64,000 bases of DNA from Rhizobacter sp. OV335 (GTDB taxonomy: Bacteria > Pseudomonadota > Gammaproteobacteria > Burkholderiales > Burkholderiaceae_C): NCBI RefSeq assembly GCF_900142965.1, contig NZ_FRCQ01000035.1:1-64000 (forward strand). Reading direction: 5' to 3'. The position numbers and the translations under genes were made by a program. Below, one piece after another: positions 16,243-64,000 of the stretch. Position 1 is the stretch's first letter. Each line of letters begins with the position of its first letter. The notes under the pieces are model-generated. The model saw nothing but the letters and a program-made list of their open reading frames with translations, did no database searches and was not told the origin of the DNA.

Positions 16243-17124
16243 TCAAACGGCTCCCGCCACCCACCCCACGATCCCCCCGATCACCCGCTCCCGATTCACC
16301 TCCGCGGTGAACGTGTGGTCCGTGTCCTCGTGGTACTCCAGCTGCAGCCGGTCGCCGAACGGCACGTCGGGAAACGCGTCCAGCAGTTGCTCGCGGTAGT
16401 TGTGGAAATCTTCCCGCTCGGCCGTCAGCACCGCCAGGAAGCGGTTGCCCGAGCGCTGCGCCGCCGCGTAAGCGTTCGACAGGAAGGCGCGCGCTTCGGG
16501 CGAATCCAGGTCCGCACGCGCCCCCTCCTCCGGCGGCTCGGCGTGGCTTGCGCCGCCCATGCGCTGCCCCAGCGCCTGCCACAGTGGGTGCTTCCCCCGC
16601 GCGATGTTCATCCAACTGCTCAGCCGCGTCGCGCGCCGCGCGTAGTGGTTCAGGTAGTAGCGCGGCGTGTGCGGGATCGACGGGTCCAGCAGCACCAGCC
16701 CCGTCACGCGCGCGTCGCGGCCTGCGTAGACCACCGCGTGGTCCGCGCCCGAGCACAGGCCGACCAGCACGAAGCGCTTGAAGCCCCGCGCTGTCTCCAG
16801 CGTGTCCAGCGCCTCCTTGATGTCGGCCAGGCTCGCCTCCAGCAACCCGAGCCCGTCGTCGCGGGGCTCGCTGTCGCCGATGCCCGAGAGGTCGAAGCGC
16901 ACCGCATCGACACCGTGTTGCGACAGCCGCCGGCACAGCTGCACCGTCATCCGGTTCGCGCCGACGCGGTGGATGATCCCCGAGTTCAGCACCACCACTG
17001 CCGGCCGGTCCGGTGACACCGCCGTGCCCTCGGCGGCCGGCGTCACGATGCCCACCAGCGCCTTGCGCGGCCCCATCAGCAGCACCTGCTCCGTCACCGG
17101 TCGATCGTTCACGCGTTCGTTCAC
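16243..17124 (-). CDS. Alpha/beta-hydrolase with Cys at the nucleophile elbow
   Basis: A 293-residue hydrolase, last gene of the biosynthetic operon. The nucleophile elbow reads VGLCSGADH, placing Cys124 where Ser usually sits, as in dienelactone-hydrolase-type enzymes. A catalytic His is likely in EDTDHTF. RFDLSGIGDSE is the usual loop after beta-4. I chose GTG at 17124 because GGTGGAG lies 6 bases upstream, and it sits 2 bp after the previous stop; the frame is open to 17205. It resembles the paired hydrolases near some exosortase and NRPS/PKS loci. It may release or edit the product. Confidence 0.8.
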   Translation of the reverse strand: MNERVNDRPVTEQVLLMGPRKALVGIVTPAAEGTAVSPDRPAVVVLNSGIIHRVGANRMTVQLCRRLSQHGVDAVRFDLSGIGDSEPRDDGLGLLEASLADIKEALDTLETARGFKRFVLVGLCSGADHAVVYAGRDARVTGLVLLDPSIPHTPRYYLNHYARRATRLSSWMNIARGKHPLWQALGQRMGGASHAEPPEEGARADLDSPEARAFLSNAYAAAQRSGNRFLAVLTAEREDFHNYREQLLDAFPDVPFGDRLQLEYHEDTDHTFTAEVNRERVIGGIVGWVAGAV

Positions 17125-17126
17125 GG

Positions 17127-17852
17127 TCAGCTCCACCACTGCGCCATGCGCTGCAACACCTTCACCGGCACCGCGCCGGCCCCCGAATGGTGATCCTCCA
17201 GCCACGCGGGCTGGCCCTCGACCTGCTCGACGGGCACGGAGCCGACGGCCTCACCCGGCACCGATCGAACCACCAGCGTGCGTGCCGGCAACTCCGCCGC
17301 CGGCAGCGCCAATCCACGCAGCTCCGCCACCATCGCGTCACCGAGCGCGAAGCCCATCACCTCGTACCCGCCACCGTGCTCCGCCTTGCGGGCCGGCGCA
17401 TCAGCCAGCAGCTCCTTCAGATACCCCTCGCCCGACACCACCGGGTCCCACAGCACCACGCTGTCGACATCCTTGCGCCGCCGCGCCGCGACACCCGCGG
17501 CCAGCGTGCCGCCCAGCCGCAACCCCAGCAGCCCGACGCGCGCCGCGTCGGTCGTGTCTTTCAGCTCGTCGATCGCCGTCTCGATGTCGGCCTGCCAGCC
17601 GGCCAGGCTCGCGTCCAGCATCTCGCCAGCCGAATCGCCGGTGCCGAAGTAGTCGAAGCGCAGCACGTGCACGCCGGCCTGGTTCAGCAGCGTCGCGAGC
17701 TGCTTCATCGCGCGATGGGCACGCAGGTACTCCTGCCCCCACGGCGGGCACAGCAGCACGGCTTTCGTGCCGCTGCCGGAAGCCGATGCCCGCGCCGGGC
17801 TGTACACGCCGAACAGCCGCCGTTGCCGCGTGCCGAAGAAGAATGGGTTCAT
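17127..17852 (-). CDS. Alpha/beta-hydrolase-fold protein lacking the canonical nucleophile
   Basis: A 241-residue protein starting MNPFFFGTRQRRLFGVY. CPPWGQEYLRAHRA and RFDYFGTGDSAG are conserved core loops. The elbow reads GLLGLRLGG, so the nucleophile position is Arg112 rather than Ser or Cys. It is probably non-hydrolytic or unusual in mechanism; related hydrolases of exosortase loci may share this. Its ATG overlaps the NRPS stop by 4 bp (ATGA), so it is translated with the NRPS. It pairs with the Cys-type hydrolase downstream. Confidence 0.8.
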   Translation of the reverse strand: MNPFFFGTRQRRLFGVYSPARASASGSGTKAVLLCPPWGQEYLRAHRAMKQLATLLNQAGVHVLRFDYFGTGDSAGEMLDASLAGWQADIETAIDELKDTTDAARVGLLGLRLGGTLAAGVAARRRKDVDSVVLWDPVVSGEGYLKELLADAPARKAEHGGGYEVMGFALGDAMVAELRGLALPAAELPARTLVVRSVPGEAVGSVPVEQVEGQPAWLEDHHSGAGAVPVKVLQRMAQWWS

Positions 17853-20800
17853 GTGCTGGGCAAGTGATCTGAAACATGCGCGGCGCCCGCAGCCGCGATC
17901 TGGCGAAGGTTCTGGAAGAACAGCACGCGCGGATCCATGCGCCAGCCGGTGCGCTGCTCCACCGCCACCGCGACGCGCAGCGACAGCAGCGAATGCCCGC
18001 CCAGCTCGAAGAAGTTGTCCTCGGCGCCCACCCGCTCGATCTGCAGCGTCTCCTGCCACACATCGGCCAGCAGCCGCTCCAGGCCCGGCGCCGGCGGCTC
18101 GTAGGCCGCCACCGGCGCGGCGTTGCGGAACGGGTCCGGCAGCGCCGCGCGGTCGACCTTGCCGTTCGGCGTCAGCGGGATCGCGTCGAGCGCGACCACC
18201 AGCGACGGCACCATGTAGTCCGGCAGCTCGCGCCGCAGATGGCGCCGCACCTCGCTGACGGTCAGGTCCTCGCCGGGCTGGTAGACGACGTACGCGACCA
18301 GCCGCAGGTCGCCCGGCCCGGCCTCGCGCGCGATGACCACCGATTGCCGCACCGCCTCGTGCCCGGCGAGCACCGATTCGATCTCGCCGAGCTCGATGCG
18401 GAAGCCGCGGATCTTCACCTGGTGGTCGATGCGCCCCAGGTGCTCCAGCCGCCCCTGCGCGGTCCAGCGGCCGAGGTCGCCGGTGCGGTACAGCCGCGCC
18501 CCGGGCTGCGTCGAGAAGCGGTCGGCGACGAAGCGATCGGCCGTCAGCTCCGGCCGCCGGTGGTAGCCGGTCGCGACGCCCGCGCCGCCGATCCACAGCT
18601 CGCCCGGGATACCGGCCGGCTGCAGTTCGCCGGCGCGGCTCAGCACATGCACCTGCGTGTTGTCGATCGGCCGGCCGATCGTGACCGGTGCGCCGCCGCC
18701 GATCACGCGCTCGGCCGTCGACCACACCGTCGTCTCGGTCGGGCCGTACAGGTTCCACAGCTCGCTGACGCGTGCGAGCAATGCATCAGCAAGCTCGCGC
18801 GGCAGCCCCTCGCCGCCGCACAGCGCGCGGAAGCCCGGCCCGCCGGTCCAGCCGGCTTCGATCAGCAGCCGCCAGGTGGCCGGCGTCGCCTGCAGCACGG
18901 TCGCGCCGCTCGCCGCCAGCGCGGCGGAGAGTGCAATGCCGTCGGCCGCCGTCTCGCGCGACAGCAGCTCGACCCGCGCGCCGACCAGCCACGGCAGGTA
19001 CAGCTCCAGCCCGGCGATGTCGAACGAGACGGTCGTCACGGCAGCCAGCACGTCGCCGGCCTGCAGCCCCGGCTCGCGCCGCATCGAATGCAGGAAGTTC
19101 GCGAGCGCGCCGTGCGGCACCACCACGCCCTTCGGCCGGCCGGTCGAGCCGGAGGTGTAGATGACGTAGGCCGGGTCATCGGGCGCGGGCGCGCCCGCGA
19201 GGTTGTCCTCGCTGCCGGCCCCCAGCGCAACCGCATCAGCCAGCACGTCCAGCAGTTGCACGCCGGGCGGCAGCGCGATGCCGTCGGCCGCATCGCCACC
19301 CGCCACCAGCACGGTCGCGCCGCTGTCTTCCAGCATGTAGGCGAGCCGCTCGGCCGGGAAGCCCGGGTCCAGCGGCACGTAGGCCCCGCCCGCCTTCTGC
19401 ACGCCGAGCAAGGCCACCACCAGCGCGAGCGAGCGCTGCAGGCACACGCCGACCAACTGCCCCGGGCCGACGCCCATCGCGCGCAGCCGGTTGGCCACGC
19501 GGTTCGCGCGGGCGTTCAGCGCCGCGTAGGTCAGCGACGCGCCTTCGTAGCGCACCGCCTCGGCCGCCGGGCTGCGGGCGACCTGGGCCTCGAAAAGGCG
19601 TGGATAAACATCGCTGGCATGCGCGGCCGCGGTGCCGTTCATCTCGACCAGCAGCCAGCGCTGCTCGTCGGCCGTCAGCATCGGCAGCTTCGCCAGCGCC
19701 ATGGAAGACGACACGGCAGGCGCCGCCACCAGCGCTTCGAGCAGCGCGCGGTAGTGCCCCGCCATGCGTCGGATCGTCGGTTCGTCGTACAGCTCGGTCG
19801 AGTACTCGAACAGCACGCTGCCGCTGACGGCCGCCTCGATGTACAGCCCCAGCTCGAACGGCGCAGCAGCACGGTCGATCGCGACCGGCTCCCATTGCAG
19901 GCCGGGGAACTCGATGCCGCTCATCGGCGCGTTCTGCAGCGTGAACAGCACCTGCGCGAGCGGCGGCAGCGCAGGCCCGCGCATCGGCCGCAGTTCTTCC
20001 ACCAGCTTCGCGAACGGCAGCTCCTGGTGCGCATACGCCTCCAGCGCGGTCGTGCGCACGTTCGCCAGCAGCTCGCTGAACGCGGTGTCGTCGCCGCAGG
20101 TGCTGCGCAGCACCTGCGTGTTGATGAAGCCGCCGACCAGCCCTTCGACCTCGCGCTGCTCGCGGTTGGCGATCGGCACCGCGACCGCGATGTCGGCCTG
20201 CCCGGTGTAGCGGTGAAGCAGCGTCACGTAGGCGGCGAACAGGGTCATGAACAGCGTGCAGCCGTGGCTGCGACTGAACGCTTCGAGCGACGCGATCAGC
20301 GCGGGCGGCAGCACGTCGGCATGCCAGGCGGCGCGGTCGGAGAGGATGGTCGGCCGCGGGTGGTCGGTCGGCAGCAGCAGCGGCGCAACGCCGTCGAGCT
20401 GCCGGCGCCAGTAGCCGAGCTGCGCCTCCAGCACCTCGCCCTGGAAGCGCTCGCGCTGCCACACCGCGACATCGCGGTACTGCACCGCCAACGGTTGCCA
20501 CGTCGGTGCGCCGCCGCGGCGGAACGCGGCGTAGGCCTCGGCCAGTTCGCGGCCCAGCACGCCGTACGACCATTGGTCGCCGGCGATGTGGTGCATCGCG
20601 AGCAGCAGCAGGTGCTCGTCGTCGGCCACCTGGACCAGCAGCGTGCGGAAGACCGGCCCATGCACCAGGTCGAAGTAGGCGCGCGCGGTGTCGGTGGCCA
20701 GTGCGATCGCGGCCTCCTCGGCCTGCCGACCCTGTGCGCGCAGGTCATGGAACGGCAGCGCGACCGGCTGGTGCGGCTGCACCGTCTGCATCGGGCGGCC

Positions 20801-23800
20801 ATCGATCATCGCGAAGGTGGTGCGCAGCGTCTCGTGCCGCTGCACCAGCGCGTCGAGCGCACGCTCCAGCGCGCTGCGGTCGAGCACGCCGTGCAGGCGG
20901 AGTGCGACCGGCATGTTGTAGGCCGAGCTGTCCGGCGCCAGCTCGTGCAGCAGCCACATGCGCTCCTGCGCGAACGACAGCGGCGACGGGCCGTCGCCGG
21001 CCAGCCGCGTGATCGGGGTGCTCGTTGAAACCGGCGCGCGGCCCGCGTCGATCGCCCGCGCCAGCTCGTGCAGCAGCGGCCGCTCGAACACCGTGCGCAG
21101 CACGAAGCCGCGGTCGAGGGCCTGGCGGATGCGCGCCGTCACCTGCGTCGCGAGCAGCGAGTGGCCACCCAGCTCGAAGAAGTTGTCGTGGCGGCCGATC
21201 TCGGCGTCGCCCAGCGCCAGCACGTCGCGCCAGATCGCCGCGAGGCCCAGCTCGGTCTCGCCCTGCGGCGGCTCGACGCGCCGCCCGGCCGCGCCAGCCA
21301 GCCCCGCTGGCGCCGGCAGCGCCTGGCGGTCGACCTTGCCGTTGCCGGTCAGCGGCAGCGTCGGCAGCGTGACGAACGCGGCCGGCACCATGTAGTCGGG
21401 CAGCCGCTCGCGCAGCGCCTGCTTCAGCACGTCGACATCGGCCGTGCCGGCCACGTACGCGACGAGCCGCTGGTCGCCGGGCACGTCCTCGCGCGCCAGC
21501 ACCGCGCTCTCGCGCACGCCCGGCTGCTGCGCCAGCAGCGCCTCGATCTCGCCGAGCTCGATGCGGAACCCGCGGATCTTCACCTGGTGGTCGATGCGGC
21601 CGAGGTACTCCAGCTCCAGTGCGCCGTCGGCGGCCCGCATGCGCCAGCGCGCCAGGTCGCCGCTGCGGTACAGCCGCTCGCCCGGGTTGAACGGATCGTC
21701 GACGAAGCGCGCCGCCGTCAGCTCGGGCCGGTCCAGGTAGCCGAGCGCGAGGCCCGGCCCGCCAACGTACATCTCGCCGGTCACGCCGATCGGCACCGGC
21801 TGCATCAGCGCGTCGAGCAGCAGCACGCGCAGGTCGGGAATCGTCACGCCGATCACGCTGCCGGCGCGCGCCTCCACGTCGGCGCGCGTGATCGGCCGGT
21901 ACGTCACGTGCACGCAGGTCTCGGTGATGCCGTACATGTTGACGAGCCGCGGCTGCGCGTCGCCATGGCGCTCGAACCATGGGCGCAGGCTCTGCAGCTC
22001 CAGCGCCTCGCCGCCGAACACCACCTCGCGCAGGGCAGTGCGCCGCGGCGCACCACTGTCGACATCGGCTTGCACGAGTTGGCGGAAGGCCGACGGCGTC
22101 TGGTTCAGCACCGTCACGCGCTCGTCGTGCAGCAGCTGCAGGAAGGCCTCCGGCGAGCGGCTCACCGCATGCGGCACCACCACCAGGCAAGCGCCATGCG
22201 CCAGCGCGCCCCACAGCTCCCACACCGAGAAATCGAAGGCGACCGAGTGGAACAGCGTCCACACATCCTGCGGGCCGAAATGGAACCAGCCGGCGGTGGC
22301 GCTGAACAGCCGGTCGACCGCGCGGTGCGTCAGCAGCGTGCCCTTCGGCTGGCCGGTGGAGCCGGAGGTGTAGATCACATAGATCAAATCATCGGCGCCG
22401 ACAGGGCTTGCCGGATTGCCGGTGGATGCCTCGGCCAGAGACGGGTCATCGAGGCACAGCGTGGTGCCCGCGTGCTGCGGAAGCTGCGCAATCAGCGCCG
22501 ACTGCGTCAACATCACCGGTGCCTGCGCGTCGCCGAGCATGAAGGCCACGCGTTCGGCCGGGTACGACAGATCGACCGGCAGGTAGGCGCCGCCCGCCTT
22601 CAGGATGCCGAGCAGCCCGACCACCAGCGCGATCGAGCGCTCGGCGCACAGCCCGACGCGCGTGCCCGGCCCGACGCCCAGCCCCTGCAGCCGGTGCGCC
22701 ACCTGGTTCGCGCGGCGGTTCAGCTCGCCGTAGCTCATCGCGACGCCGTCGCAGCGCAGCGCGGTCGCGTCGGGCGTGTTCGCGGCATGGGCCTCGAAGC
22801 GATGGTGGATCGGCTGCGCATCGCTGGCGAGCGCAACCACCGGTGGCAGCAAGGCCGCACGCTCGGCGGCACCCAGCAACGGCAGCCGGCCGATCGGCAT
22901 CGCCGGGTCGGCCACGATGCCATCGAGCAGCACGCGGTAGTGCGCCCACAGCCGCTCGATCGTCGCGCGGTCGAACAGCGCAGGGTTGTACTTGAACGCG
23001 CCCGACAGCGCATCGCTGCGGTCGATCAGCCCGAGCCCGAGGTCGAACTGCCCCTCCTGCTGCGCCATCGCATACGGCGTCACGCGCCAGCCAGCGAAGT
23101 CCACCGGCACGTCGCTCGCGCCGGCGACCAGCAGGTCGTTCAGCTCGCGGAACTGCTCGAAGCGCTGCAGGACGAACATGGTCTCGAACAGCGGCGAGCG
23201 GCTCGGATCGCGCACCGGCTGCAGCCGGTCGACCAGCAGGGACAGCGGGTACTCCTGCGCGTCCAGCGCCTCCAGCAGCGTGCCGCGCACCTGCTGCATC
23301 AGCGTGCGGAACGGCAGCGCGGCGTGCAGGCGCGAGCGCAGCGCGACCGGGTTCACGAAATCGCCCATCACGCGCGCGAACTCGGGCTGCGTGCGGCCGA
23401 AGGTCGGCGTGCCGACGATCACGTCCTCGGTGCCGGTGTGGCGGTACAGCAGCACCTTGAACGCGGCCAGCAGCAGCACGTACAGCGTCATGCCTTCGTC
23501 GCGCGCGAGCTGGTTCAGGCGCGCGGTGGTGGCGGCATCGACATGGAAATCGAAGGTGGCGCCCTGCCCGCTGCGCCGCGGCGGACGCGGGCGATCGGGC
23601 GGCAGCTCGACCTCGGCGCGCGGCGCGGCGAGCTGGCGCGTCCAGTACGCGGCAAGCTGCTCGCCCTGCGGGCCGGCCAGCATCGCGGCCTGCCAGTCGG
23701 TGTAGTCGGCGTACTGCAGCTCGACGCGCGGCAGGCCGGCCGGCGCGCCACCGCCCGCTTCGACCAGCAGCGCACGGAACTCCTCCAGCAGCATCAGCAG

Positions 23801-24415
23801 CGACCAGCCGTCGATCGCGATGTGGTGCATCGCCAGCAGCAGCACCCGGTCGTCGGCGGCGCGGCGGTACAGCGAGGTGCGCATCACCGGGCCGTGGGCC
23901 AGGTCGAAGGGGCGTTGCGCGTCGGCCTCGATGCGCTGCAGCAGTGCGGCATCGGAGAGGCCCGCCGCGTCGTGGAGATCAAGCATTGCGGTGCCGATGC
24001 CCGCGATGCGCTGGCGCGGCAGGCCGTCGATCACGTCGTAGGTGGTGCGCAGCACCGCATGCCGGTCGACCAGTGCCTGCAGCGCCTGGCGCAGCGCGGC
24101 CTCGTCCACCGGCGAAAGAACGCGCAACGCGAACACCACGTTGTAGGCCGCGCTGTCGGGCTGCTCCTGGTGCACGAACCACAGCGCCTGCTGCGGGTGC
24201 GACAGCGGCGCGATGCGCTGCTGCTGTGCCGCCTGCGCACGCAGGCCTGCCAGTACCTCGTCGCGCCGCGCGCCGATCTGCGCGCGCAATTCGGCCGACA
24301 GCGCCCCCTGCGGTGCACGGAAGCGCAGCCGGCTCCCTTCGAACCACAGCAGCACGCCTTGCGCGGCCAGGGCAGACAGCAAGGCGCTGATGTCAGGGTG
24401 TTCGTTCAGGGTCAC
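17849..24415 (-). CDS. Two-module NRPS: docking-C-A(Thr)-PCP-C-A(Gly)-PCP
   Basis: A 2188-residue protein. The TubC/beta-hairpin docking domain is about residues 6-62. C1 70-500 has MHHIAIDGWS (HHxxxDG). A1 540-1010 gives specificity residues D-F-W-N-V-G-M-V-H(-K), the threonine code. PCP1 has Ser1086. C2 1140-1570 reads HHIAGDQWS, with Gln replacing the last Gly. A2 1610-2085 gives D-I-L-Q-L-G-L-V-W(-K), a glycine-type code. PCP2 has Ser2142. There is no epimerase, thioesterase or reductase, so the chain is not released by this protein. GTG at 24415 has GGAGG 5 bases upstream; the open frame beyond it is repeat sequence. Confidence 0.95.
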   Translation of the reverse strand: MTLNEHPDISALLSALAAQGVLLWFEGSRLRFRAPQGALSAELRAQIGARRDEVLAGLRAQAAQQQRIAPLSHPQQALWFVHQEQPDSAAYNVVFALRVLSPVDEAALRQALQALVDRHAVLRTTYDVIDGLPRQRIAGIGTAMLDLHDAAGLSDAALLQRIEADAQRPFDLAHGPVMRTSLYRRAADDRVLLLAMHHIAIDGWSLLMLLEEFRALLVEAGGGAPAGLPRVELQYADYTDWQAAMLAGPQGEQLAAYWTRQLAAPRAEVELPPDRPRPPRRSGQGATFDFHVDAATTARLNQLARDEGMTLYVLLLAAFKVLLYRHTGTEDVIVGTPTFGRTQPEFARVMGDFVNPVALRSRLHAALPFRTLMQQVRGTLLEALDAQEYPLSLLVDRLQPVRDPSRSPLFETMFVLQRFEQFRELNDLLVAGASDVPVDFAGWRVTPYAMAQQEGQFDLGLGLIDRSDALSGAFKYNPALFDRATIERLWAHYRVLLDGIVADPAMPIGRLPLLGAAERAALLPPVVALASDAQPIHHRFEAHAANTPDATALRCDGVAMSYGELNRRANQVAHRLQGLGVGPGTRVGLCAERSIALVVGLLGILKAGGAYLPVDLSYPAERVAFMLGDAQAPVMLTQSALIAQLPQHAGTTLCLDDPSLAEASTGNPASPVGADDLIYVIYTSGSTGQPKGTLLTHRAVDRLFSATAGWFHFGPQDVWTLFHSVAFDFSVWELWGALAHGACLVVVPHAVSRSPEAFLQLLHDERVTVLNQTPSAFRQLVQADVDSGAPRRTALREVVFGGEALELQSLRPWFERHGDAQPRLVNMYGITETCVHVTYRPITRADVEARAGSVIGVTIPDLRVLLLDALMQPVPIGVTGEMYVGGPGLALGYLDRPELTAARFVDDPFNPGERLYRSGDLARWRMRAADGALELEYLGRIDHQVKIRGFRIELGEIEALLAQQPGVRESAVLAREDVPGDQRLVAYVAGTADVDVLKQALRERLPDYMVPAAFVTLPTLPLTGNGKVDRQALPAPAGLAGAAGRRVEPPQGETELGLAAIWRDVLALGDAEIGRHDNFFELGGHSLLATQVTARIRQALDRGFVLRTVFERPLLHELARAIDAGRAPVSTSTPITRLAGDGPSPLSFAQERMWLLHELAPDSSAYNMPVALRLHGVLDRSALERALDALVQRHETLRTTFAMIDGRPMQTVQPHQPVALPFHDLRAQGRQAEEAAIALATDTARAYFDLVHGPVFRTLLVQVADDEHLLLLAMHHIAGDQWSYGVLGRELAEAYAAFRRGGAPTWQPLAVQYRDVAVWQRERFQGEVLEAQLGYWRRQLDGVAPLLLPTDHPRPTILSDRAAWHADVLPPALIASLEAFSRSHGCTLFMTLFAAYVTLLHRYTGQADIAVAVPIANREQREVEGLVGGFINTQVLRSTCGDDTAFSELLANVRTTALEAYAHQELPFAKLVEELRPMRGPALPPLAQVLFTLQNAPMSGIEFPGLQWEPVAIDRAAAPFELGLYIEAAVSGSVLFEYSTELYDEPTIRRMAGHYRALLEALVAAPAVSSSMALAKLPMLTADEQRWLLVEMNGTAAAHASDVYPRLFEAQVARSPAAEAVRYEGASLTYAALNARANRVANRLRAMGVGPGQLVGVCLQRSLALVVALLGVQKAGGAYVPLDPGFPAERLAYMLEDSGATVLVAGGDAADGIALPPGVQLLDVLADAVALGAGSEDNLAGAPAPDDPAYVIYTSGSTGRPKGVVVPHGALANFLHSMRREPGLQAGDVLAAVTTVSFDIAGLELYLPWLVGARVELLSRETAADGIALSAALAASGATVLQATPATWRLLIEAGWTGGPGFRALCGGEGLPRELADALLARVSELWNLYGPTETTVWSTAERVIGGGAPVTIGRPIDNTQVHVLSRAGELQPAGIPGELWIGGAGVATGYHRRPELTADRFVADRFSTQPGARLYRTGDLGRWTAQGRLEHLGRIDHQVKIRGFRIELGEIESVLAGHEAVRQSVVIAREAGPGDLRLVAYVVYQPGEDLTVSEVRRHLRRELPDYMVPSLVVALDAIPLTPNGKVDRAALPDPFRNAAPVAAYEPPAPGLERLLADVWQETLQIERVGAEDNFFELGGHSLLSLRVAVAVEQRTGWRMDPRVLFFQNLRQIAAAGAAHVSDHLPST

Positions 24416-24425
24416 GGCTTCCTCC

Positions 24426-24496
24426 CGTTCGCCCTGAGCTTGTCGAAGGGCCTGCGCGCACGGGACCTGGGCTTCGACAAGCTCAGCCCGAACGGA
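24426..24496. repeat. REP-like inverted pair between transporter and NRPS genes
   Basis: CGTTCGCCCTGAGCTTGTCG (24426 on) and its near reverse complement CTTCGACAAGCTCAGCCCG (24472 on) form a hairpin in the 121-bp gap inside the operon. It could stabilise or attenuate the mRNA upstream of the NRPS start. Confidence 0.85.
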
Positions 24497-24536
24497 GATT
24501 TGTGCAGCGCGCACGGAACACTGTCGGCCACTGAAG

Positions 24537-25451
24537 TCACTTGGGGACGATCCTTTCCACGGACGGTTGCCACAGCCAGAGCGCGAGCAGCGCCAGCGCG
24601 ATCCACACCGCGCCGAGCATGTCGCGGTGCGTGAAGGCTTCGCCCGCGGCGCCCCACTCCACCAGCGCCATGCACAGCAGGTGCACGTGCAAGGTCGGCG
24701 CCACCTGCGCGACCGGCGCGCGCTCGCAGGCGCGGTCCAGCGCCCACAGCGCGAGCAACCCGACGATGCCGATGCCGGCCAGCAGCACCGCGTCGTGCAG
24801 GTTCGGCGTGACCCAGACGAAGGGCATCAGCGGCGTCAGCAGCGCGAACACGCCGAGCGCGGTGAAGAACAGGTTGGCCCGCACCGGCTCGTCGCGCAGC
24901 GAGCGCGTCATCACGACGTAGACGCTGAACGACAGCGCCATCGCGAGCGGCAGCAGCGCGCCGGCCCACGAATGCGGCAGCGACGGCTCGGCCATCACCG
25001 CCGCGACACCGCTGCCGATCGCCGCAACCGCCCACACCCAGCGCGGCACGCGTTCGCCCAGGGCCCAGCGCGCGAAGCCGAGGATCAACAACGGCGCGAC
25101 CCAGAACATCGCCCACACGGTGCCGGGCCGGTCGCCGGCCGCGAGCGACAGCGCGAAACTCGCCGGCATCACCAGCATCAGCACCGAGCGCGACAGCTGG
25201 AAGCCGACCCGCTGCGTGCGCCACAGCCGCGACGGCGCGCGCCAACCAACGATCAGCAGCAGGCAGGCCAGGTGCGCCGCATAGCGGCACCACACCACCT
25301 GCATCAGCGAGTAGTGCAGTTGCAACCGCGCACCGAACACGCCTTCGACGAAGGCCCAGGCCGCCGCGAACAGCGCGAGCAGCAGCATCGCGCTGCGGCC
25401 CGGGTCGCGCCGGACGAAGGAGGATGCGAAGGCGGGCGGCGCGAGGTTCAT
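24537..25451 (-). CDS. EamA/DMT-type transporter, second of a pair
   Basis: A 304-residue integral membrane protein with about ten hydrophobic helices, in the EamA (RhaT/DMT) family. The repeat-2 segment VVMTRSLRDEPVRANLFFTALG aligns with ALTRSLRHEPVMTNLFYVGLG of the upstream gene, so the two are tandem paralogs. ATG at 25451 has GAGG upstream and lies 2 bp after the previous stop. Position between PKS and NRPS genes suggests export of, or immunity to, the product; the substrate is unknown. The long open frame upstream of the ATG is a shadow. Confidence 0.85.
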   Translation of the reverse strand: MNLAPPAFASSFVRRDPGRSAMLLLALFAAAWAFVEGVFGARLQLHYSLMQVVWCRYAAHLACLLLIVGWRAPSRLWRTQRVGFQLSRSVLMLVMPASFALSLAAGDRPGTVWAMFWVAPLLILGFARWALGERVPRWVWAVAAIGSGVAAVMAEPSLPHSWAGALLPLAMALSFSVYVVMTRSLRDEPVRANLFFTALGVFALLTPLMPFVWVTPNLHDAVLLAGIGIVGLLALWALDRACERAPVAQVAPTLHVHLLCMALVEWGAAGEAFTHRDMLGAVWIALALLALWLWQPSVERIVPK

Positions 25452-25453
25452 CG

Positions 25454-26419
25454 TCAATGCCTCGTGTCGTCGTCCAGCGGCACCGGGCCGGTGGCCGATT
25501 CCAGCGCCATCGGGCCGGTCATCGGAACGCGCTGCCCCGGCAGGTCGCGCGCCACCGCGGCGCGCCACAGCGCGAACGCGATGCCGCCGACCATCGCCAG
25601 CCCGAGCGCAATGCGCAGCGACGGCAGGTGCCCGCGGGCCGCCAGCGACACGAGCGTCAGGCAGGCCACGTGCACGTACAGCGCCGGCGCGATCCACGGC
25701 AGCGGCGAGCGGCGCAGCGCGTGCTCCAGCAACCACAGCGCGACGAAGCCGACCACGCCGAGCGCGGCGAACACCAGCGCATCGTGCAGCGAGGGCATCA
25801 CCCACACGCCGGGCAGGAAGGGCAGCACGCCAAGCAGCCCGCCCAGGCCGACGTAGAACAGGTTGGTCATGACCGGCTCATGGCGCAGCGAACGCGTCAG
25901 CGCGAGGTAGGCCGCGAAGGCCAATCCCATCAGCAGCGGCACCACCGAGGCCTGCAAGGTGGTCGGCCGGGCCGGCTCCAGCATCGCGATCGTCGCGCAC
26001 AGGCCCGCGGCGGCGGCGATCCAGACGAACAGCGGCGCCTTCGACAGCAGCCAGCCGCGTGCCAGCAGCAGCGCGAACACCGGCGCGACCCACAGCCCGG
26101 TCATCGCGAGGTGCGGCGACGCGCCCTGCAGCACCGCGACGCCGAACGACAGCGGGATCGCGAGCATCAGCGCTGATCGAACCAGTTGCGCAAACGGACG
26201 GGTCGTGCGCCACAGCGGCGTCTTGCTGCGCCAGCCCCACACCGCGCCCATCAGCGCGAGCTGCACCGCGAAGCGGCAGCCTTCGATCTGCAGCACGTCG
26301 TAGCCGCCCTGCAGGCGGGAAGCGATCAGTTCGAGCACGGCCCAGAGCGCGGAGAACGCGAACGCGAAGCCCAGCGCCGCGCGAGCCGACGGCGCCCGTG
26401 TGTGCTTCGGGCGACTCAC
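25454..26419 (-). CDS. EamA/DMT-type transporter, first of a pair
   Basis: A 321-residue membrane protein starting at GTG, overlapping the PKS6 stop by 4 bp (GTGA). It has about ten hydrophobic segments, with the basic stretch WRSKTPLWRTTRPF after helix 2. TRSLRHEP is shared with the neighbour. The C-terminal tail after the last helix (about 30 residues, ending DDDTRH) is hydrophilic. It probably acts with, or duplicates, the next protein in drug/metabolite transport. Confidence 0.85.
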   Translation of the reverse strand: MSRPKHTRAPSARAALGFAFAFSALWAVLELIASRLQGGYDVLQIEGCRFAVQLALMGAVWGWRSKTPLWRTTRPFAQLVRSALMLAIPLSFGVAVLQGASPHLAMTGLWVAPVFALLLARGWLLSKAPLFVWIAAAAGLCATIAMLEPARPTTLQASVVPLLMGLAFAAYLALTRSLRHEPVMTNLFYVGLGGLLGVLPFLPGVWVMPSLHDALVFAALGVVGFVALWLLEHALRRSPLPWIAPALYVHVACLTLVSLAARGHLPSLRIALGLAMVGGIAFALWRAAVARDLPGQRVPMTGPMALESATGPVPLDDDTRH

Positions 26420-29400
26420 AGCGAGCCCTCCTCGTACGCAGCCTGCGACGCTGCAGCCGGTGCCGTCGGCGCCCCCACCGCGAGCGACGTCTCCGCCAGC
26501 ACCGACGCTGCCAGCTGCGCAATGCTCGGCCCCTTCAGCAACGCCGCCACCGCGACCTTCGCCTTCAGCGCGGTCTGGATGCGGTTGCGCAGCTCCATCG
26601 CCATCAGCGAGTCCATCCCCATCTCCATCAGCGAGCGCTGCGGGTCGACCTGGTGCGAGGCCGGCAACGCCAGCACGCGCACGATCTGCTCCGACAGGAA
26701 GCCGACCAGCAGCGCGAGCCGGTCCTCGGCCGGCGCCTGCGCCAACTGCGCGAGGATGTCGACCTGCCCCACCCCACCGGCCGGTGTCGCGGCCCGCACC
26801 GGCGCCGCCTGCACCAGCTCGCTGAAGAACGGCCCGAGGTTGCGCGGCAGCCGCGCGCGCACCAGCGGCATCGCGGCCATCTGCGGCGACCGGGCCGACG
26901 CGAGCATCTGCTTCATCATCGCGACGCCCTCGTGCGGCGCGATCATCCCCAACCCCATCGCGGCCCAGCGCCGGCGGTGCTGCTCGCCGATGCCCGCCGC
27001 CATGCCGACCTGCGACCAGCTGCCCCAGTCGATGCTCAGCGCATGCTGGCCGCGCGAGCGGCGCAGGTGGGCCAGCGCATCGACGAACGAGTTCGCCGCC
27101 GCGTAGTTGCCCTGCCCCGGCGAGCCGAGCAGCGCCGCGCCCGACGAGAAGCCGATGAAGAAATCGAGCGCCAGGTTCGCGGTCAGCTCGTGCAGGTTCC
27201 AGGTGCCGCGCACCTTCGGCGCCATCACGCGGGCGAAGCGGCGCATGTCCTGCTCGGCCAGCATGCCGTCGTCGACAAGGCCCGCCGCATGGATCACGCC
27301 GCGCAGCCGCGGCAGTTGCGCCGCGACCTGCGTGACCAGGCGCGTCATCTGCCCGGTGTCGGCCACGTCGGCCTGCGCGACCAGCACCTGCACGCCGTCG
27401 GCGCGCAGCGCATCGATCGCGGCCTGCGTCTCGGGCGACGGCGCGCGCCGGCCGACCAGCACCAGGTGGCGGGCGCCCTCGGCGGCCAGCCATTGCGCGC
27501 TGACCAGGCCCAGCCCGCCCAGCCCGCCGCTCACCAGGTAGCTCGCGTCCGGCCGCACCGGCGGCGTGCGGTGCTGCGTGACGACGATCTTGCCGACGTG
27601 GTGGCCCTGGCCCATGTAGCGGAAGGCCTCTTCGGCGCGCTCGATCGGGTAGAGCTTCTGCGGCAGCGGCTGCAGCACGCCGGTCGCGAAATCGGCCAGC
27701 AGCTCCTGCAGCATCTCGCGCACGAACAGCGGCCGGGCTGCGGCGATCTCGCCGAGGTACAGCGGGTGGTAGTGCCGGCCCGGGAACTCGTCGGCGACGC
27801 GTGCGGCGTCCCAGATGCCGGTCTTGCCGATCTCGATGAAATGCCCGCCGGGTTTCAGCAGGCGCAGGCTGGCCGGAATGAAATCGCCGGCCAGCGAGTT
27901 CAGCACGATGTCGACGCCGTCGCCGTTGGTGTCGCGCAGGACGTCGTCGACGAAGCTCAGCGAGCGCGAATCGGCCACATGCTGCACGCCCAGCCGCTGG
28001 GCCAGCGCGCGCTTGTGCGGCGAGCCGGCGGTGCCGAAGATCTCGGCGCCGGCCCGCTTCGCGAGCTGCGCCGCCGCCATGCCGACGCCGCCGGTCACTG
28101 CATGCAGCAGCAAGCGGTCGCCCTTCTTGATGCCGGCCAGGTGCTTCAGCGCGTACTCGGCGGTCAAGAAGGTGACGGGGATCGTCGCCGCCTCGGCGAA
28201 GCTCATCTGCGGCGGTTTGCGCACCGTCAGCGACGCCGGCGCGAGCACCCAGGTCGCGAAGCTGCGGTCGACCATCGCGATCACCTCGTCGCCGACCTGC
28301 AGGTCATCGACGCCGGTGCCGACGGCGGTGATGACGCCCGAGCATTCGTTGCCGAGCGGCCCGGGGTCACCGGGGTACATGCCGAGCGCGTTCAGCACGT
28401 CGCGGAAGTTCAGGCCGGTCGCGAACACGCGGATCTCGACCTGGCCCGCGCCGGGGGCTTCCCTGGTCACCGGCTGCAGCGCGAGGTTCTCGAGCGAACC
28501 GCGCTCGGTGATTTCCAGGCGCAGCGGCTGGTCGTCGGGAACGAAGACGCCGGGCACCAGGCGGGCGGCGAGGCGCGTACCGTCGCGCAGCGCGATGCGG
28601 TCTTCGGCGTCGGCTTGCCAGAGGCTGGCGAACAGCAGCTCGGCCTCGTCGGCGCGCACGACCGGGTCGAGGTCGATGCGCACGCAGCGCGCGAGCGGTG
28701 CCTCGGACGCGATGACGCCGCCGAGCCCCCACACGGTTGCCTGCACCAGGTCCGGCACCGAGCCCTGCACCGGCTGCGCGCCACGCGTGACCAGCCAGCG
28801 GCGCGCGCTCGAATCGCCGAGCGCCTGGGCGGCGTGCAGCAGGTTGCCGAGCAGCAGCGCCTGCGCGTTCTCCATCGCCTCCAGCGAGTGGGCGACCGGC
28901 GGCACCAGCGCCCACAGCACGACGACGCCTTGCAGCGGGCGAGGATCGGCCTGCGCGGCCTCGTCGATCGCGCGGCGGATCTGCGCGCTGTCGGCGGCAT
29001 CGACCTGCCAGCCTTCGGCCAGCGCCGCATAGCCATCGCCGCGGTAGACCAGCGCGACACCGGCGCCTTCGGCTTTCAGGCGTGCGGCGAGGGTGGCACC
29101 AACGCCGGTGCGGTCGGCCAGCACCAGCCAGCGGCCTTCAGCACCCACTCCGTTCGCCGTTGCAGCACTGCCGTTCGCCGCCGCCCCCTCTCCGTTCGCC
29201 CTGAGCCTGTCGAAGGGGCCCTCCGAGGTATGCGCCGGCTTCGACAGGCTCAGCCCGAACGGAGGTGGGGGGCTCGGCCCGAACGGTGCAGGTCGCCACT
29301 CGGTCTCGAAGGCCCAGTCGGACGCCGCACTGACGGCCGGTAGGCCAGCCACGCGCTGCAGCGCTTCCCGCGTGATGCGGCGCAGCTCCAGCCCGGACAG

Positions 29401-32400
29401 CTCGGCCAGCACGCGGCCGTCGTCATCGAGCAAGGTCAAATCGGCGCGCAGCACGTCGGCATCGCGCGCGGCGGGTTCGACGCGCACCTGGCACCAGGCC
29501 TGCGCCGCCCCGCCTTCGAACACGCGGTAGCCGGCCAGCCCGACCGGCACGCAGATGTCGTCGCTGCCGAGCGGATCGTCGGCCCACGGCAAACCGAGGC
29601 CGATCAGTTGCAGGCAGGCATCGAGCAACGCCGGGTGCAGCACCAGGCCCGCGGTCGGCAGCCCTGCCGGCAGTTGCACGCGGCCGAGCACCTGCGTGCC
29701 GTCGCGCGCGATCGACGTGATGCCGCGGAAGGCCGGCCCGTAGTGCGCACCTTGCGCAGCGAGCTTGTCGTAGTACGGCTCGACCGGCTGCGTCGGCGCA
29801 CCGGCCAGGCGCCACGCGCCGTCGACCGCCGGCGCGTCGCCGCGGCCGGGCATCAGCGTCGCGCTCGCATGCAGGCGCCACGCGGCGTCATCGGCGGCGC
29901 GGCTGAAGACCTGCACCGTCTGCGCGTCGGGCGCGATGGCGTCGGCCGGCGTCACGATCACCTGCAGCGTCACGCCGCCCTGCTCCGGCAGCACCAGGCC
30001 TTCGCGGATCGCGAGGTCCTGCAGCCGCACATCCTCGCCACCGCTGACCTCGCGCGCGGCAGCCTGCATCAGTTCCAGGAAGCCGGTCGCCGGGAACAGC
30101 GTGAAATCGAAGATGCGGTGGTCGACGAGCCACGGCTGATCGCCGAGCCCGATCGTCGACTGGAAGATCGGCAGCGGGCTCGCGACCGTGCCGCCGAGCA
30201 GCGCATGCGGCGTGCGGGTCGCGCCGAGCGCGTTGCCGGTCGACGCGTTGCCGGAGCGCGGCTCGAAGCTCTGCCAGTAATGCTCGCGCTGGAACGGATA
30301 CGTCGGCAACGTGGCCCGCGGCCGATGCCCGCCCTGCACCGCCGCCCAGTCCGGCCGCACGCCGCGCACGAACAACTGGCCCAGGCTGTCGAGCAGCGAC
30401 ACCACATCGTCGCGGCCCTTGCGCAGCGACGGGATCCATGCGCTGTCGGGCATCACGCTGCCGCGCTGCGCCATGTTCAGCAGCGTCGGCTGCGGGCCGA
30501 GCTCGATGAAGACGCGCAGCCCGTCGGCCTGCAGCGCCGCGATCGAATCGCCGAAGCGCACCGCGTCGCGCACATGGCGGCGCCAGTAGCCGGCGTTGCA
30601 GACTTCGTCGCCGGCCAGCCGGCCGGTGACGTTCGACGCCAGCACGAGCTGCGGCGGACGGAACTCGACCTGCGACGCGACCGCCTCGAACGCATCGAGC
30701 ATCGGCTCCATCAGCGGCGAGTGGAAGGCATGCGAGACCTTCAGCCGCTGCGCCTCGATGCCGGCGACCGCGAGCCGTTCCAGCGCCGCGTCGACCGCGT
30801 CGCTGCGGCCGGAGATCACGGTGTTCTGCGGGCCGTTCGCCGCGGCGATGGCGAGCACGGCAGCATCGCGCGCGATCGCGGCGCGCACGGTGGCCTCGTC
30901 GCTGAAGACCGCCGCCATCGCGCCGTCGCGCGGCAGCGCGCCCATCAGCCTGCCCCGTTCGACGATCAGCCTCAGCCCGTCGGCCAGGCTGAACACGCCG
31001 GCCACGCAGGCCGCGACGTACTCGCCGACGCTGTGGCCCATCACCGCGGTCGGCTTGACGCCCCACGACTGCCACAGCTGCGCGAGTGCGTATTCGATGG
31101 CGAACAGCGCCGGCTGCGTGAACGCGGTGTCGTCGAGCCGCTCGGCGTCGTTCCACACCACGTCGAGCAGGCTGCGGCCGAGCAGCGGCGCGGCGATGCG
31201 CTCGCAGTCGTCGAGCGCGGCGCGGAACACCGGCTCGGCGTCGTACAACCCGCGGCCCATGCCGGCGTATTGCGCGCCCTGGCCGGTGAACAGGAAGACG
31301 AGCTCGGGCACCGTGCCGCCGGTAGCGCGGCCGCGCGAGGTGCCGGCGCTCGGGGTGCCGGCGCTGAATTCAGTCAGCCGCGCCTTCAGCGCGTCGGCGC
31401 TGTCGGCGACGACCGCGAGCCGCTCGATGAACGGCGAGCGGCCGACCGCGAGCGTCGCGGCGATCTGGTCGAGCGGCGCCGTGCCGGCGGCATCGACCAG
31501 CCGGCGCGCGGCGGCTTCGAGCGCGGGCGGGGTCTGCGCGCTCAGCACGAAGAGCTGCTGCGCGCGCGTGGCCGCCGGCACTGCGGCCATGGCCGGCGCT
31601 TCTTCGAGCACGACGTGCGCGTTGGTGCCGCTGAAGCCGAACGAGCTGACGCTCGCGCGCCGCGGCTGCCCGGTGGCCGCGGACCACGGCGTCGGCACCG
31701 TCGGCACCGTGATCGGCATCTCGTCCCACGCGATCAAATGGTTGCGGTTCTTCAGGTGCAGGTGCGGCGGGATCGTGCGGTGCTGCAGCGCCAACGCGAC
31801 CTTGATGACGCCGGCCACGCCGGCGGCGGCCTCCAGGTGGCCGATGTTGGTCTTCACCGAACCCAGCATCAGGGGCGTGTCGGCCGCGCGCTGGCCGTAG
31901 ACGTGGTGCAGCGCCTTGACCTCGATCGGGTCACCGAGCGGCGTGCCGGTGCCGTGCGCCTCGACATAGCTGATCTCGTCCGGCTTGACGCGCGCATTCG
32001 CGAGCGCAGCGCGGATCACCGCCTCTTGTGCGGTGCCGTTCGGCGCGGTCAGGCCACTGCTGCGGCCGTCCTGGTTCAGCGCCGAGCCCCGCACCAGCGC
32101 GACGATGCGGTCGCCGTCGCGCTGCGCATCGGACAGGCGCTTCAGCACGAGCACGCCGCAGCCTTCGCCGCGCACGTAGCCGTCGGCCGCGTCGTCGAAG
32201 GTCTTGCAGCGGCCGTCGAACGACATCATCCGCGCGCGAGAAGTGAGGATCGAGCCGTCGGCCGTCAGCGTCAGGTTCACGCCGCCGGCGAGCGCCAGGT
32301 TCGCTTCGCCGCTGCGCAGGCTCTGCACCGCCCAGTGGATCGCGACCAGCGACGACGAGCACGCGGTGTCGATCGCGACGTTGGGCCCGTGCAGCCCCAA

Positions 32401-32988
32401 GAAGTACGACAGCCGCCCGGCCGCGACGCTGTGCGCGGTGCCCGAGGGCGTATAAGCATCGCCGAAGCGCGAGCCGATCGCCTCGGACAGCTGGTTCGCG
32501 TAGTCGTGCGTCGTGATGCCCATGTAGACGGCGGTGGGGCTGCCGGCCAGCGACGACGGCGCGATGCCGGCGTGTTCGAGCGATTCCCAGGTCACCTCCA
32601 GCAGCAGCCGCTGCTGCGGATCGAGGCTGACCGCCTCGCGCGGCGAGATGCCGAAGAAGCCCGCATCGAAGCGGTCGACGTCCTTCACGAAGCCGCCCCA
32701 GCGGGTGTAGCTCTTGCCGGGCACGTCGGGGTCGGCGTCGAAGCAGGCGTCGGCATCCCAGCGCTCCTTCGGCACCTCGGTGACGCCGTCGGTGCCGCTC
32801 TCGAGGAAACGCCAGAAGGCCTCGGGCGTGTCGCCGTCACCGGGGAAGCGGCAACCGATGCCGACGATCGCGATCGGCTCGTGGCGCGCATGCTCGGCCG
32901 CCTTCAGCTTTGCCTCGAGCTGGTCGATGGCCTGCAGCGAGCGCTTCAGCAGCGCTGCGTAGTCGGGGGTCTGCCTCGTATCGGTCAC
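26416..32988 (-). CDS. Type I PKS module 6: KS-AT-DH-ER-KR-ACP
   Basis: A 2190-residue fully reducing module. KS 38-466 (Cys210). AT 562-845 (GHSVGE, Ser653; HAFH, malonyl type). DH 926-1205: His957 and Asp1123 are present, but the HxxxGxxxxP glycine is Asp. ER 1505-1805 ([24 protein letters not shown]). KR 1816-1995 (GGLGGLG, VDD, Tyr1962). ACP Ser2127. A repeat-derived insert is at 1243-1267. The C terminus YEEGSL fits a short motif for a beta-hairpin docking domain, as found on the NRPS. GTG at 32988 follows AGGAGA; the frame is open to 33240 through repeats only. Confidence 0.95.
29192..29263. repeat. REP-like inverted pair inside the PKS6 coding sequence
   Basis: CGTTCGCCCTGAGCCTGTCG and the later CTTCGACAGGCTCAGCCCG form an inverted pair read through in frame in the DH-ER linker, giving PFGLSLSKP and PFDRLRANG. 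It lies between folded domains and probably is tolerated as a flexible linker. Confidence 0.9.
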
Positions 32989-33037
32989 GGGGTCTCCTGA
33001 GCAATGAAGGACTCGGCCCGAGCGCGGGCCTCCACAC

Positions 33038-33335
33038 CGTTCGCCCTGAGCTTGTCGAAGGGCCCGATCATCCTGAGCTTGTCGAAGGGCCTGAGCTTGT
33101 CGAAGGGCTTGCTCGCATTGAACCGGGGCTTCGACAGGCTCAGCCCGAACGGAGTGGGGCTCAGGTCGAACAAAAGAACCGTTCGCCCTGAGCCTGTCGA
33201 AGGGCTGCCCTGAGCTTGTCGAAGGGCATGCTCGCTGCATGCGCCGGCTTCGACAGGCTCAGCCCGAACGGAGGTGGGCTCAGTCCGAACGGAGGTAGCT
33301 TCAGCCCGAACGGTGTGGAACTCCGCCCGAACGGG
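33038..33335. repeat. REP-like cluster between PKS5 and PKS6
   Basis: At least five CTGAGC(T/C)TGTCGAAGGG units and two CTTCGACAGGCTCAGCCCG units, plus degenerate CAGNCCGAACGG pieces, fill most of the 376-bp gap (32989-33364). No gene is in this gap. Both orientations are present, so strong mRNA hairpins are expected in the middle of the operon. Confidence 0.92.
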
Positions 33336-33364
33336 TGCGGGAAGGCCAGGTCGCACACGATCCA

Positions 33365-39139
<5,775 letters not shown>

Positions 39140-39200
39140 TCAAGGCCTCCGTGATGAGCGCAGTCCGGATGCGCGAGAAAGCCGGTTGGGCTGATATTTC

Positions 39201-39396
39201 CCGTTCGGGCTGAAGCGAATTCCCCCGTTCGGGCTGAGCTTGTCGAAGCCCTGGTTGCATGCGTGCAGGCCCTTCGACAGGCTCAGGGTGAACGGTCTTG
39301 TTTGCTCAGGCTGAAGCGGATTCACCCGTTCGGGCTGAGCCTGTCGAAGCCCTGGTTCCATGCGCGCAGGCACTTCGACAAGCTCAGTGCGAACGG
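39201..39396. repeat. REP-like cluster between PKS4 and PKS5
   Basis: The 297-bp gap (39140-39436) holds alternating units: CCGTTCGGGCTGAGC(T/C)TGTC near 39225 and 39326, and CTTCGACA(G/A)GCTCAG near 39271 and 39372, plus a degenerate copy at 39201. Arrangement is head-to-head pairs spaced about 100 bp. No gene here. Confidence 0.92.
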
Positions 39397-39436
39397 AGTG
39401 GGAGGCGCGAACAGCGGGACGGTGAAGGTGCTTCAC

Positions 39437-58004
<18,568 letters not shown>

Positions 58005-58006
58005 CG

Positions 58007-63256
<5,250 letters not shown>

Positions 63257-63268
63257 CGAAGCCTCTCG

Positions 63269-64000
63269 TCAGGCGAAGCTGAAGGACTGTGTCGGCGTGG
63301 GCGTCAGCAGCGGTGCCAACGTGACCGACAGGTCGGCCAGCAGCGCATCGCGCCGGCCGGCCAGGTAGAAGTGGTCGCCGGGGAACACGCGCACGCGGAA
63401 CGGGCCGCGCGTCTCGCCGCGCCAGCCGTCGAGGTGCTCGCGCGGCGTCAGCGGGTCGTCGCTGCCGCCGAATACCGACAGCGCGCAATCGAGCGGCGCG
63501 CGGCCGACCGGCGGCCGGTGCGTCTCGAGCGCGGCGATGTCGGCGCGCAGGCTGGGCAGCAGCAGCGCCATCACGTCGGCATGCTGCAGCAGCTCGGCCG
63601 GAATGCCGCCGTAGCGGCGCTGGATCTCGGCAACGAAGGCAGCATCCGGCAAGCGGTGCAGCGCCGGCTCGTTCGACGGCCAGTGCGGCGGGCGGCGGCC
63701 CGACACGATCAGTTGCGCCGGCACCGGCGCGCCGGCGTCGCGCAGTGCGCGCGCGACCTCGGCGGCGAGCACTGCGCCCATGCTGTGGCCGAAGAACGCG
63801 AACGGCCTGCCGTCGAGCTCGGCGCGCAGCACCGGCAGCAGCGCGTCGATCAACGCGCCCATGCGGTCGATCGGCGGTTCATCGAGCCGGTTCGCGCGGC
63901 CGGGCAGTTGCACCGCGACCAGCTCCAGCTCGGCGGGCAGACCGGCGAGCCACGGGCGGTACACGGCCGCGCCCACACCGGCATGGTGGAAGCAGAACAG
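63269..64000 (-). CDS. Type II thioesterase, 5' end beyond the window
   Basis: At least 243 residues of a GrsT-type external thioesterase; the frame continues past the right edge. The visible start LFCFHHAGVGAAVYRPW is the usual oxyanion-loop N terminus, so only a few residues are missing. FFGHSMGAVLAAEVARAL holds the nucleophile Ser, and GDHFYLAGRRDALL holds the catalytic His. Such enzymes clear stalled or wrongly primed carrier proteins. As the first visible gene of the operon it indicates that upstream cluster genes (loading, regulation) may lie beyond 64000. Confidence 0.95.
   Translation of the reverse strand: MFCFHHAGVGAAVYRPWLAGLPAELELVAVQLPGRANRLDEPPIDRMGALIDALLPVLRAELDGRPFAFFGHSMGAVLAAEVARALRDAGAPVPAQLIVSGRRPPHWPSNEPALHRLPDAAFVAEIQRRYGGIPAELLQHADVMALLLPSLRADIAALETHRPPVGRAPLDCALSVFGGSDDPLTPREHLDGWRGETRGPFRVRVFPGDHFYLAGRRDALLADLSVTLAPLLTPTPTQSFSFA

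Follow-up and report, generated by a model that had tools for sequence, protein, structure and literature searches.

How does an assembly line that lacks a thioesterase at its end let go of its product? The question is raised by a hybrid polyketide synthase (PKS) and nonribosomal peptide synthetase (NRPS) gene cluster of the root-associated bacterium Rhizobacter sp. OV335, found in the first 64,000 bases (hereafter the window) of the 75-kb contig NZ_FRCQ01000035.1, in a genome of 6.9 Mb. The line occupies the minus strand between 64,057 and 16,243 and runs through genes for a type II thioesterase (TEII), six PKS proteins, two EamA-like transporters, an NRPS, and two alpha/beta hydrolases here called hyd2 and hyd1. 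The sequence-only reading of the window had described six one-module PKS proteins, a Thr-Gly NRPS, two transporters and two hydrolases on the minus strand over nearly 48 kb, and Pfam domains and adenylation (A) domain codes agree with that inventory; together with the acyltransferase (AT) motifs they also uphold its module order and building blocks. It had left unnamed the TEII gene that begins the line just past the window edge, and its picture of one operon has to accommodate three open junctions. Taken as a whole, the line is, with reasonable probability, a cis-AT modular PKS-NRPS that builds its chain colinearly and hands it to the hyd2-hyd1 pair for release.

The evidence for release by the pair starts at the end of the NRPS. 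Its condensation (C), A and thiolation (T) domains are in place and both A codes are readable, DFWNVGMVHK and DILQLGLVWK by alignment, which are predicted to specify Thr and Gly. Pfam detects no thioesterase domain in the NRPS, and the protein stops 46 residues past the serine of the last T domain. The pair follows at once, with neither member carrying a Ser-nucleophile GxSxG motif. The hyd1 elbow (GLCSG) places Cys at the nucleophile position, as in 34 of 34 aligned rows, and near the C terminus all five NRPS-linked rows share an Asp-His, of which the His is kept in 29 of the 34. The hyd2 elbow (GLRLG) has Arg there, as in 32 of 34 rows; the two departures are L142, where hyd1 itself was matched by the hyd2 profile, and a second line of Hydrogenophaga borbori, which has Gly. 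Under the proposed mechanism, this separate pair would release the chain that the last T domain holds as a Gly thioester, with hyd1 giving the Cys nucleophile and hyd2 serving as a partner without one, either by hydrolysis or by cyclisation, for example onto the C5 hydroxyl to give a 12-membered ring.

Two kinds of known protein come close to the pair. TIGR03100 and TIGR03101 (hydrolases 1 and 2, exosortase A system-associated) share the hyd2-hyd1 order and the Cys and Arg elbows, whereas the Rhizobacter proteins score under the curated cut-offs (99.3 versus 168.45 bits for hyd1, and 105.9 versus 202.75 bits for hyd2, scanned inside a longer frame), have GLCSG in place of the GLCD[AG] elbow, and neighbor an NRPS. 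Stand-alone trans thioesterases acting on NRPSs are likewise alpha/beta hydrolase relatives beside lines without a thioesterase domain, but the pair consists of two proteins, one of them without a nucleophile, and has no classic GxSxG. Solved structures matched by hyd1 and hyd2 were general alpha/beta hydrolases and esterases only, and single-sequence models (mean pLDDT 41.5 and 45.9) were discarded as too poor.

The distribution of the pair was followed in two surveys, with loci reaching about 1.5 kb to each side. At the level of the order, hyd1 was matched in 58 of 399 genomes; in all 30 loci returned hyd1 is preceded by a hyd2-like match, which is partial in one locus, and an A-T end lies directly before the pair in three of the eight best (the window being one) and in none of the 22 others. 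At the level of the class, a profile built from five NRPS-linked hyd1 proteins, and therefore favoring NRPS-linked pairs at top scores, found matches in 48 of 369 genomes. The arrangement A-T-hyd2-hyd1 occurs in 8 of the 10 best of 30 loci returned (7 of 9 without the window) and in 0 of the other 20, L195 (a weak A match and no T) being counted negative, and second matches in two of these genomes reveal two further A-T-pair ends. In the class-survey lines that were read, no more than about 190 bases separate the last T from hyd2, too few to encode a thioesterase domain.

It is rather unlikely, though a serious alternative, that the pair tailors, proofreads or inactivates the product, and that release falls to the TEII, to an enzyme encoded elsewhere, or to slow hydrolysis. 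The line does contain a TEII, and in a hyd1 tree of 60 rows (omitting L171, the same as L131, and five rows shorter than 150 residues, L152, L189, L191, L192 and L198) 36 rows group in one clade (100/100); almost all of them have the GLCD elbow, and none has an A-T neighbor within the reach of the loci. Other relatives of the pair sit among polysaccharide genes, which give no pointer to carrier-bound substrates. Equally outside an NRPS is another copy of the pair in this genome, part of a gene run that includes DUF1839, an acyl carrier protein and an amino acid:[acyl-carrier-protein] ligase; this run points to carrier-bound substrates, and such a context also fits a thioester substrate. Against a role other than release stand the overlap of the pair with the NRPS gene in the window and its position directly behind a terminal T without thioesterase in several lines of differing module order.

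In locus L161 (8966-16623), hyd2- and hyd1-like parts share a single 607-residue open frame, within a gene run that also includes DUF1839, a carrier protein, an amino acid:[acyl-carrier-protein] ligase and a gene resembling acyl-CoA dehydrogenase.

Adjacency to an NRPS tracks the hyd1 tree, although not as a single clade: 5 changes account for the 16 NRPS-adjacent rows, compared to 14.4 under shuffling, and at least 3 by the starred branches, in a tree with some very long branches and an arbitrary root. The Rhizobacter and Hydrogenophaga hyd1 rows fall outside the other NRPS-linked rows. The last A domain before the pair is readable in 14 lines, among which G252 is related to G192, and G477 to G719. 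Ten of the 14 (8 of 12 when three orthologous lines are counted once) have a DILQ code, namely those of the window, H. borbori, a Hydrogenophaga metagenome-assembled genome (MAG), G252, G192, G639, G570, G615 (two lines) and G471. Internal DILQ domains also occur in G596 and Hydrogenophaga. On these counts the link between the pair and a glycine-type code is suggestive.

These patterns allow a wider proposal, which we regard as possible rather than probable. The pair may represent a distinct trans-acting release class for NRPS and PKS-NRPS lines of Gammaproteobacteria, made up of a Cys hydrolase and an Arg partner and tuned mainly to a carrier-bound C-terminal glycine; its kin, the exosortase and amino acid:[carrier protein] ligase pairs, would act on carrier-bound thioesters, and the Rhizobacter line would yield a new methyl-branched acyl-Thr-Gly or 12-membered lactone. 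Our estimate is held down because the window is among the 8 of 10 best loci, NRPS-linked pairs were the source of the profile, and NRPS-linked rows are scattered over more than one part of the tree. If the pair are off-loading enzymes, lines that lack a thioesterase and often end in glycine become interpretable, and it becomes possible to test the function of a pair that until now took its name solely from an exosortase neighborhood.

Upstream of the NRPS, the line has, as read from its domains, the architecture of a conventional cis-AT PKS-NRPS, and the release pair may be the part that is new. Each of the six modules has a ketosynthase (KS), AT and acyl carrier protein (ACP) domain with active-site motifs, DTACSSS being found in six of six KS domains and GHSxGE in all AT domains. 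Apart from His in the ketoreductase (KR) domains of PKS4 and PKS5 and an altered dehydratase (DH) motif in PKS6, the DH, enoylreductase (ER), methyltransferase (MT) and KR motifs are present in the window and its orthologues, and catalytic motifs are conserved across five orthologous lines. Domain order and MT placement resemble those of modular cis-AT type I PKSs with C-methyltransferase modules, and the His-bearing KR is shared by MT modules in other taxa; the line differs from that class in having one module per protein and a glycine end without thioesterase.

The methyl branch assigned earlier to module 1 is plausible, although its source would be the AT alone. An MT domain in PKS1 was ruled out, the DH and KR matches lying only 186 residues apart with no MT match. 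What makes a methylmalonyl origin plausible is the AT1 motif VASH, present together with GHSMGE in five of five orthologues (the other ATs read YAFH, HAAH and HAFH). We take VASH and YASH to mark methylmalonyl ATs, and HAFH malonyl ones. Furthermore, the best solved-structure matches of PKS1 are DEBS modules and mycocerosic acid synthase, which use methylmalonyl, and the genome carries two genes of the methylmalonyl-CoA mutase family.

Modules 4 and 5 had been left as reduced or keto, perhaps on account of KR4 and KR5, which have His at the position of the catalytic Tyr. A survey of KR domains in 73 of 75 PKS loci (L017-L089, leaving out two Rhizobacter orthologues, with two KR gap rows uncounted) found His in 11 of 14 MT modules and in 0 of 120 modules without an MT, where Tyr is found in 120 of 120. 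Without the family members L018-L020 the counts are 6 of 9 and 0 of 117, with Fisher p values of 9e-14 (all) and 2e-8 (without L018-L020) that are not corrected for relatedness. A DH accompanies 9, and an ER 4, of the 11 His-KR MT modules, and these domains need a working KR before them, so that the prediction for modules 4 and 5 leans towards reduction rather than a retained keto group. That KR4 and KR5 are dead for want of the Tyr is unlikely, given that His is usual in MT modules. With this pattern, C-methylating modules met in genome mining could be classed as reducing, rather than doubtful.

If, as we infer, the proteins work in gene order, an acyl starter R would enter PKS1 and the chain would become R-CH=C(CH3)-CH2-CH2-CO-CH(CH3)-CH2-CH(CH3)-CH(OH)-CH(CH3)-CH2-CH2-CO-Thr-Gly, a C-methylated 5-hydroxy-9-oxo acyl-Thr-Gly thioester, its first methyl derived from methylmalonyl-CoA and the other three from S-adenosylmethionine by way of the MT domains. 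The line thus predicts a defined scaffold whose mass can be calculated: if acetyl is the starter, the free acid would be C24H42N2O7, with [M+H]+ at 471.3065, and the lactone would give 453.2959 (both by arithmetic). The Gly carboxyl, which would give the 12-membered ring, is one of three possible partners of the C5 hydroxyl; attack on C1 would give a delta-lactone, and addition to the C9 ketone a six-membered hemiketal. Export is the probable task of the transporters, and the TEII probably clears mis-loaded carriers.

Several points weigh against this reading of the line. On the side of synthesis, colinearity is a prediction, as are the AT and A specificities, which are read from sequence codes. 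A domain scan of the line found no loading module or acyl ligase, the PKS1 ACP reads GxTSL for GxDSL in five of five orthologues read (with the serine kept), the PKS6 DH reads HxxxD for HxxxG, and the second C domain reads HHxxxDQ. On the side of release, the role of hyd1 and hyd2 is predicted from sequence, both proteins score under the cut-offs of their nearest named families, and the class-survey profile was biased towards NRPS-linked pairs. The pair lies away from an NRPS in 27 of 30 order loci and 22 of 30 class loci returned, and the pairs in G730 and G471 (C5), the two of the ten best class loci that lack the A-T-hyd2-hyd1 arrangement, are of the same elbow type but have no NRPS domain within 9 and 17.5 kb, respectively. 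Nor is the last A domain always of the glycine type, since it reads DIEH in G477, G719 and G623, and DFFS in G596. The missing loading module and the odd motifs in the PKS1 ACP and PKS6 DH, along with an NRPS end that varies among relatives, are also what would be seen if the line were not colinear, or if a module were skipped or iterated, and the chain then differed from the prediction; we judge this unlikely, as Rhizobacter and Hydrogenophaga, whose six PKS proteins are 60-72% identical, keep them in one and the same order.

Table 1. Features of the assembly line and its repeats, in window coordinates
Feature	Position	Strand	Basis and remarks
Type II thioesterase (TEII)	63269..64000 in window; gene to 64,057 beyond window	-	PF00975, E 8e-49; GHSMG elbow
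PKS1, KS-AT-DH-KR-ACP	58007..63256	-	Pfam domains; AT motifs GHSMGE and VASH
PKS2, KS-AT-DH-ER-KR-ACP	51567..58010	-	Pfam domains, motifs
PKS3, KS-AT-MT-ACP, without KR	47005..51570	-	Pfam domains, motifs
PKS4, KS-AT-DH-MT-ER-KR-ACP, KR with His for catalytic Tyr	39437..47008	-	Pfam domains, motifs
PKS5, KS-AT-MT-KR-ACP, KR with His for Tyr	33365..39139	-	Pfam domains, motifs
PKS6, KS-AT-DH-ER-KR-ACP	26416..32988 (probable start; longest frame from 33,240)	-	Pfam domains, motifs
DMT1, EamA-like transporter	25454..26419	-	EamA, E 1.6e-4, under the Pfam cut-off
DMT2, EamA-like transporter	24537..25451	-	EamA, E 2.8e-9
NRPS, TubC docking-C-A(Thr)-T-C-A(Gly)-T, without thioesterase	17849..24415 (probable start)	-	Pfam domains, A codes
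hyd2, alpha/beta hydrolase, Arg (GLRLG) replacing nucleophile	17127..17852	-	4-base overlap with NRPS stop
hyd1, alpha/beta hydrolase, Cys at nucleophile place (GLCSG)	16243..17136 (start codon uncertain)	-	Conserved Asp-His near C terminus
REP-like palindrome TTCGACAAGCTCAGG, stretch	24433..50155		21 copies in window, at junctions and in PKS frames

Orthologous lines are found in Rhizobacter sp. SG703 (NZ_JAAZQK010000003.1) and Rhizobacter sp. Root1238 (NZ_LMDM01000011.1), with PKS and NRPS proteins about 86-93% identical and DMT1 82-86% identical to those of the window, and PKS1 is matched at 90% or more in 3 of 11 Rhizobacter genomes searched, its own included. Hydrogenophaga borbori LA-38 (NZ_QVLS01000002.1) and the Hydrogenophaga sp. 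MAG ACE_PRO41 (NZ_JAHBZK010000019.1) carry lines that are not known to have been characterised, with the TEII ahead of PKS1, and PKS1-6 in the same order, all at 60-72% identity (the identity comparison between related lines leaving out the hyd2 row). They share in addition two transporters, a terminal hyd2-hyd1 and a DILQ-type last A, and differ in that the line ends with a Gly module, an extra KS-AT-KR PKS and a Gly module, compared to Thr-Gly in Rhizobacter. A partial related line in a Rubrivivax MAG has the Thr code in its first NRPS A domain, and its PKS5, like those of the Hydrogenophaga lines, includes a DH with His and Asp motifs that is absent in the three Rhizobacter lines. Because the order of PKS1-6 is shared while the PKS5 DH and the NRPS ends differ, the polyketide part is stable, and one reduction step and the peptide end are variable. 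With the TEII as a marker, 399 genomes of the order gave 9 matches at 1e-40, only that of the genome itself exceeding 47% identity, a sample that evidently missed the Hydrogenophaga carriers and so provides no estimate of rarity.

Both Hydrogenophaga genomes also contain a second NRPS line (L099 9136-20000; L102-L103) that stands back to back with the first and likewise ends in hyd2-hyd1; in H. borbori this pair lies behind a C-T without a last A, and the counterpart in the MAG looks alike. In Root1238, broken PKS1-like pieces (L107, C1:331463-334030; 79-88% identical) are followed by the start of a KS, and the line may once have had a second copy here.

These relatives bear on the suggestion that the system is undescribed. 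No product was named for it before and none is named here. The suggestion holds only in part: the architecture is a conventional one, with relatives in two Rhizobacter and two Hydrogenophaga genomes and a part in the Rubrivivax MAG. That the product is nevertheless a known compound, or a close analogue of one, that went unrecognised is distinctly unlikely in our estimate. The literature search was narrow, partly mis-aimed and confined to open-licence papers; no product of such a line was found among the open-licence PMC papers that it covered, which counts as weak evidence against a known compound, as one part of the search matched mostly the word 'rhizobacteria'. The solanimycin line (PMC10204066) is trans-AT and follows another logic, and the passages of that paper that were read mention no such hydrolase pair. 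The main text of PMC7762793 contains neither 'Rhizobacter sp' nor 'Root1238', and among the PMC titles and opening lines of abstracts searched, none links exosortase-type hydrolases with a thioesterase or NRPS.

One further feature of the window is a REP-like palindrome, TTCGACAAGCTCAGG, with 21 copies at two or fewer mismatches against 0.12 expected by shuffling, all within the gene cluster. The copies fill three junctions, open by 297, 376 and 121 bases, where SG703 and Root1238 have no such gap, and they also lie within the frames of PKS3, PKS4 and PKS6; the junctions PKS1-2, PKS2-3, PKS3-4, PKS6-DMT1 and NRPS-hyd2 have 4-base overlaps. Of the 148 exact copies of TTCGACARGCTCAGG in the genome, 12 fall within these 26 kb, some 22 times the average density, and the motif was found in no open-licence PMC paper searched. 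Because longer frames run through the repeats, PKS6 and the NRPS probably start at 32,988 and 24,415.

Invasion by such repeats, into junctions and PKS frames alike, might have left the line decaying or silent in this strain, which we consider very improbable since the PKS and NRPS frames are open and dN/dS is low. Measured against orthologues in SG703 and Root1238, the PKS and NRPS genes have dN/dS values of 0.16-0.27, TEII of 0.27-0.28 and DMT1 of 0.41-0.43, compared to 0.07-0.20 for four neighboring genes; purifying selection thus acts on the PKS and NRPS genes, though less strongly than on most neighbors.

In all three Rhizobacter genomes that carry it, panC borders the line at one end, and miaA with a gene for a C39 peptidase at the other. 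The C39 and panC matches lie more than 0.5 Mb apart on one contig in G001, G003 and G009, and on different contigs in G004 and G008; G010 and G007 gave no C39 match. The C39 peptidase gene was ruled out as a member of the line, there being no match to it in the Hydrogenophaga or Rubrivivax stretches. Likewise ruled out, for want of a Pfam match, was an 880-residue open frame on the minus strand at 13,354-15,996, which has no Pfam match at 0.05 and no tandem repeats. The 4-kb stretch that holds this frame has 60% G+C, compared to 66-74% in other 4-kb stretches, and panC and hyd1 are 2.9 kb apart in the window, compared to about 1 and 1.8 kb in SG703 and Root1238, without regard to order. Elsewhere in the same genome, loci L169 and L170 (G000:C56:32163-57868) hold another PKS-NRPS line with a type II thioesterase-like gene of its own.

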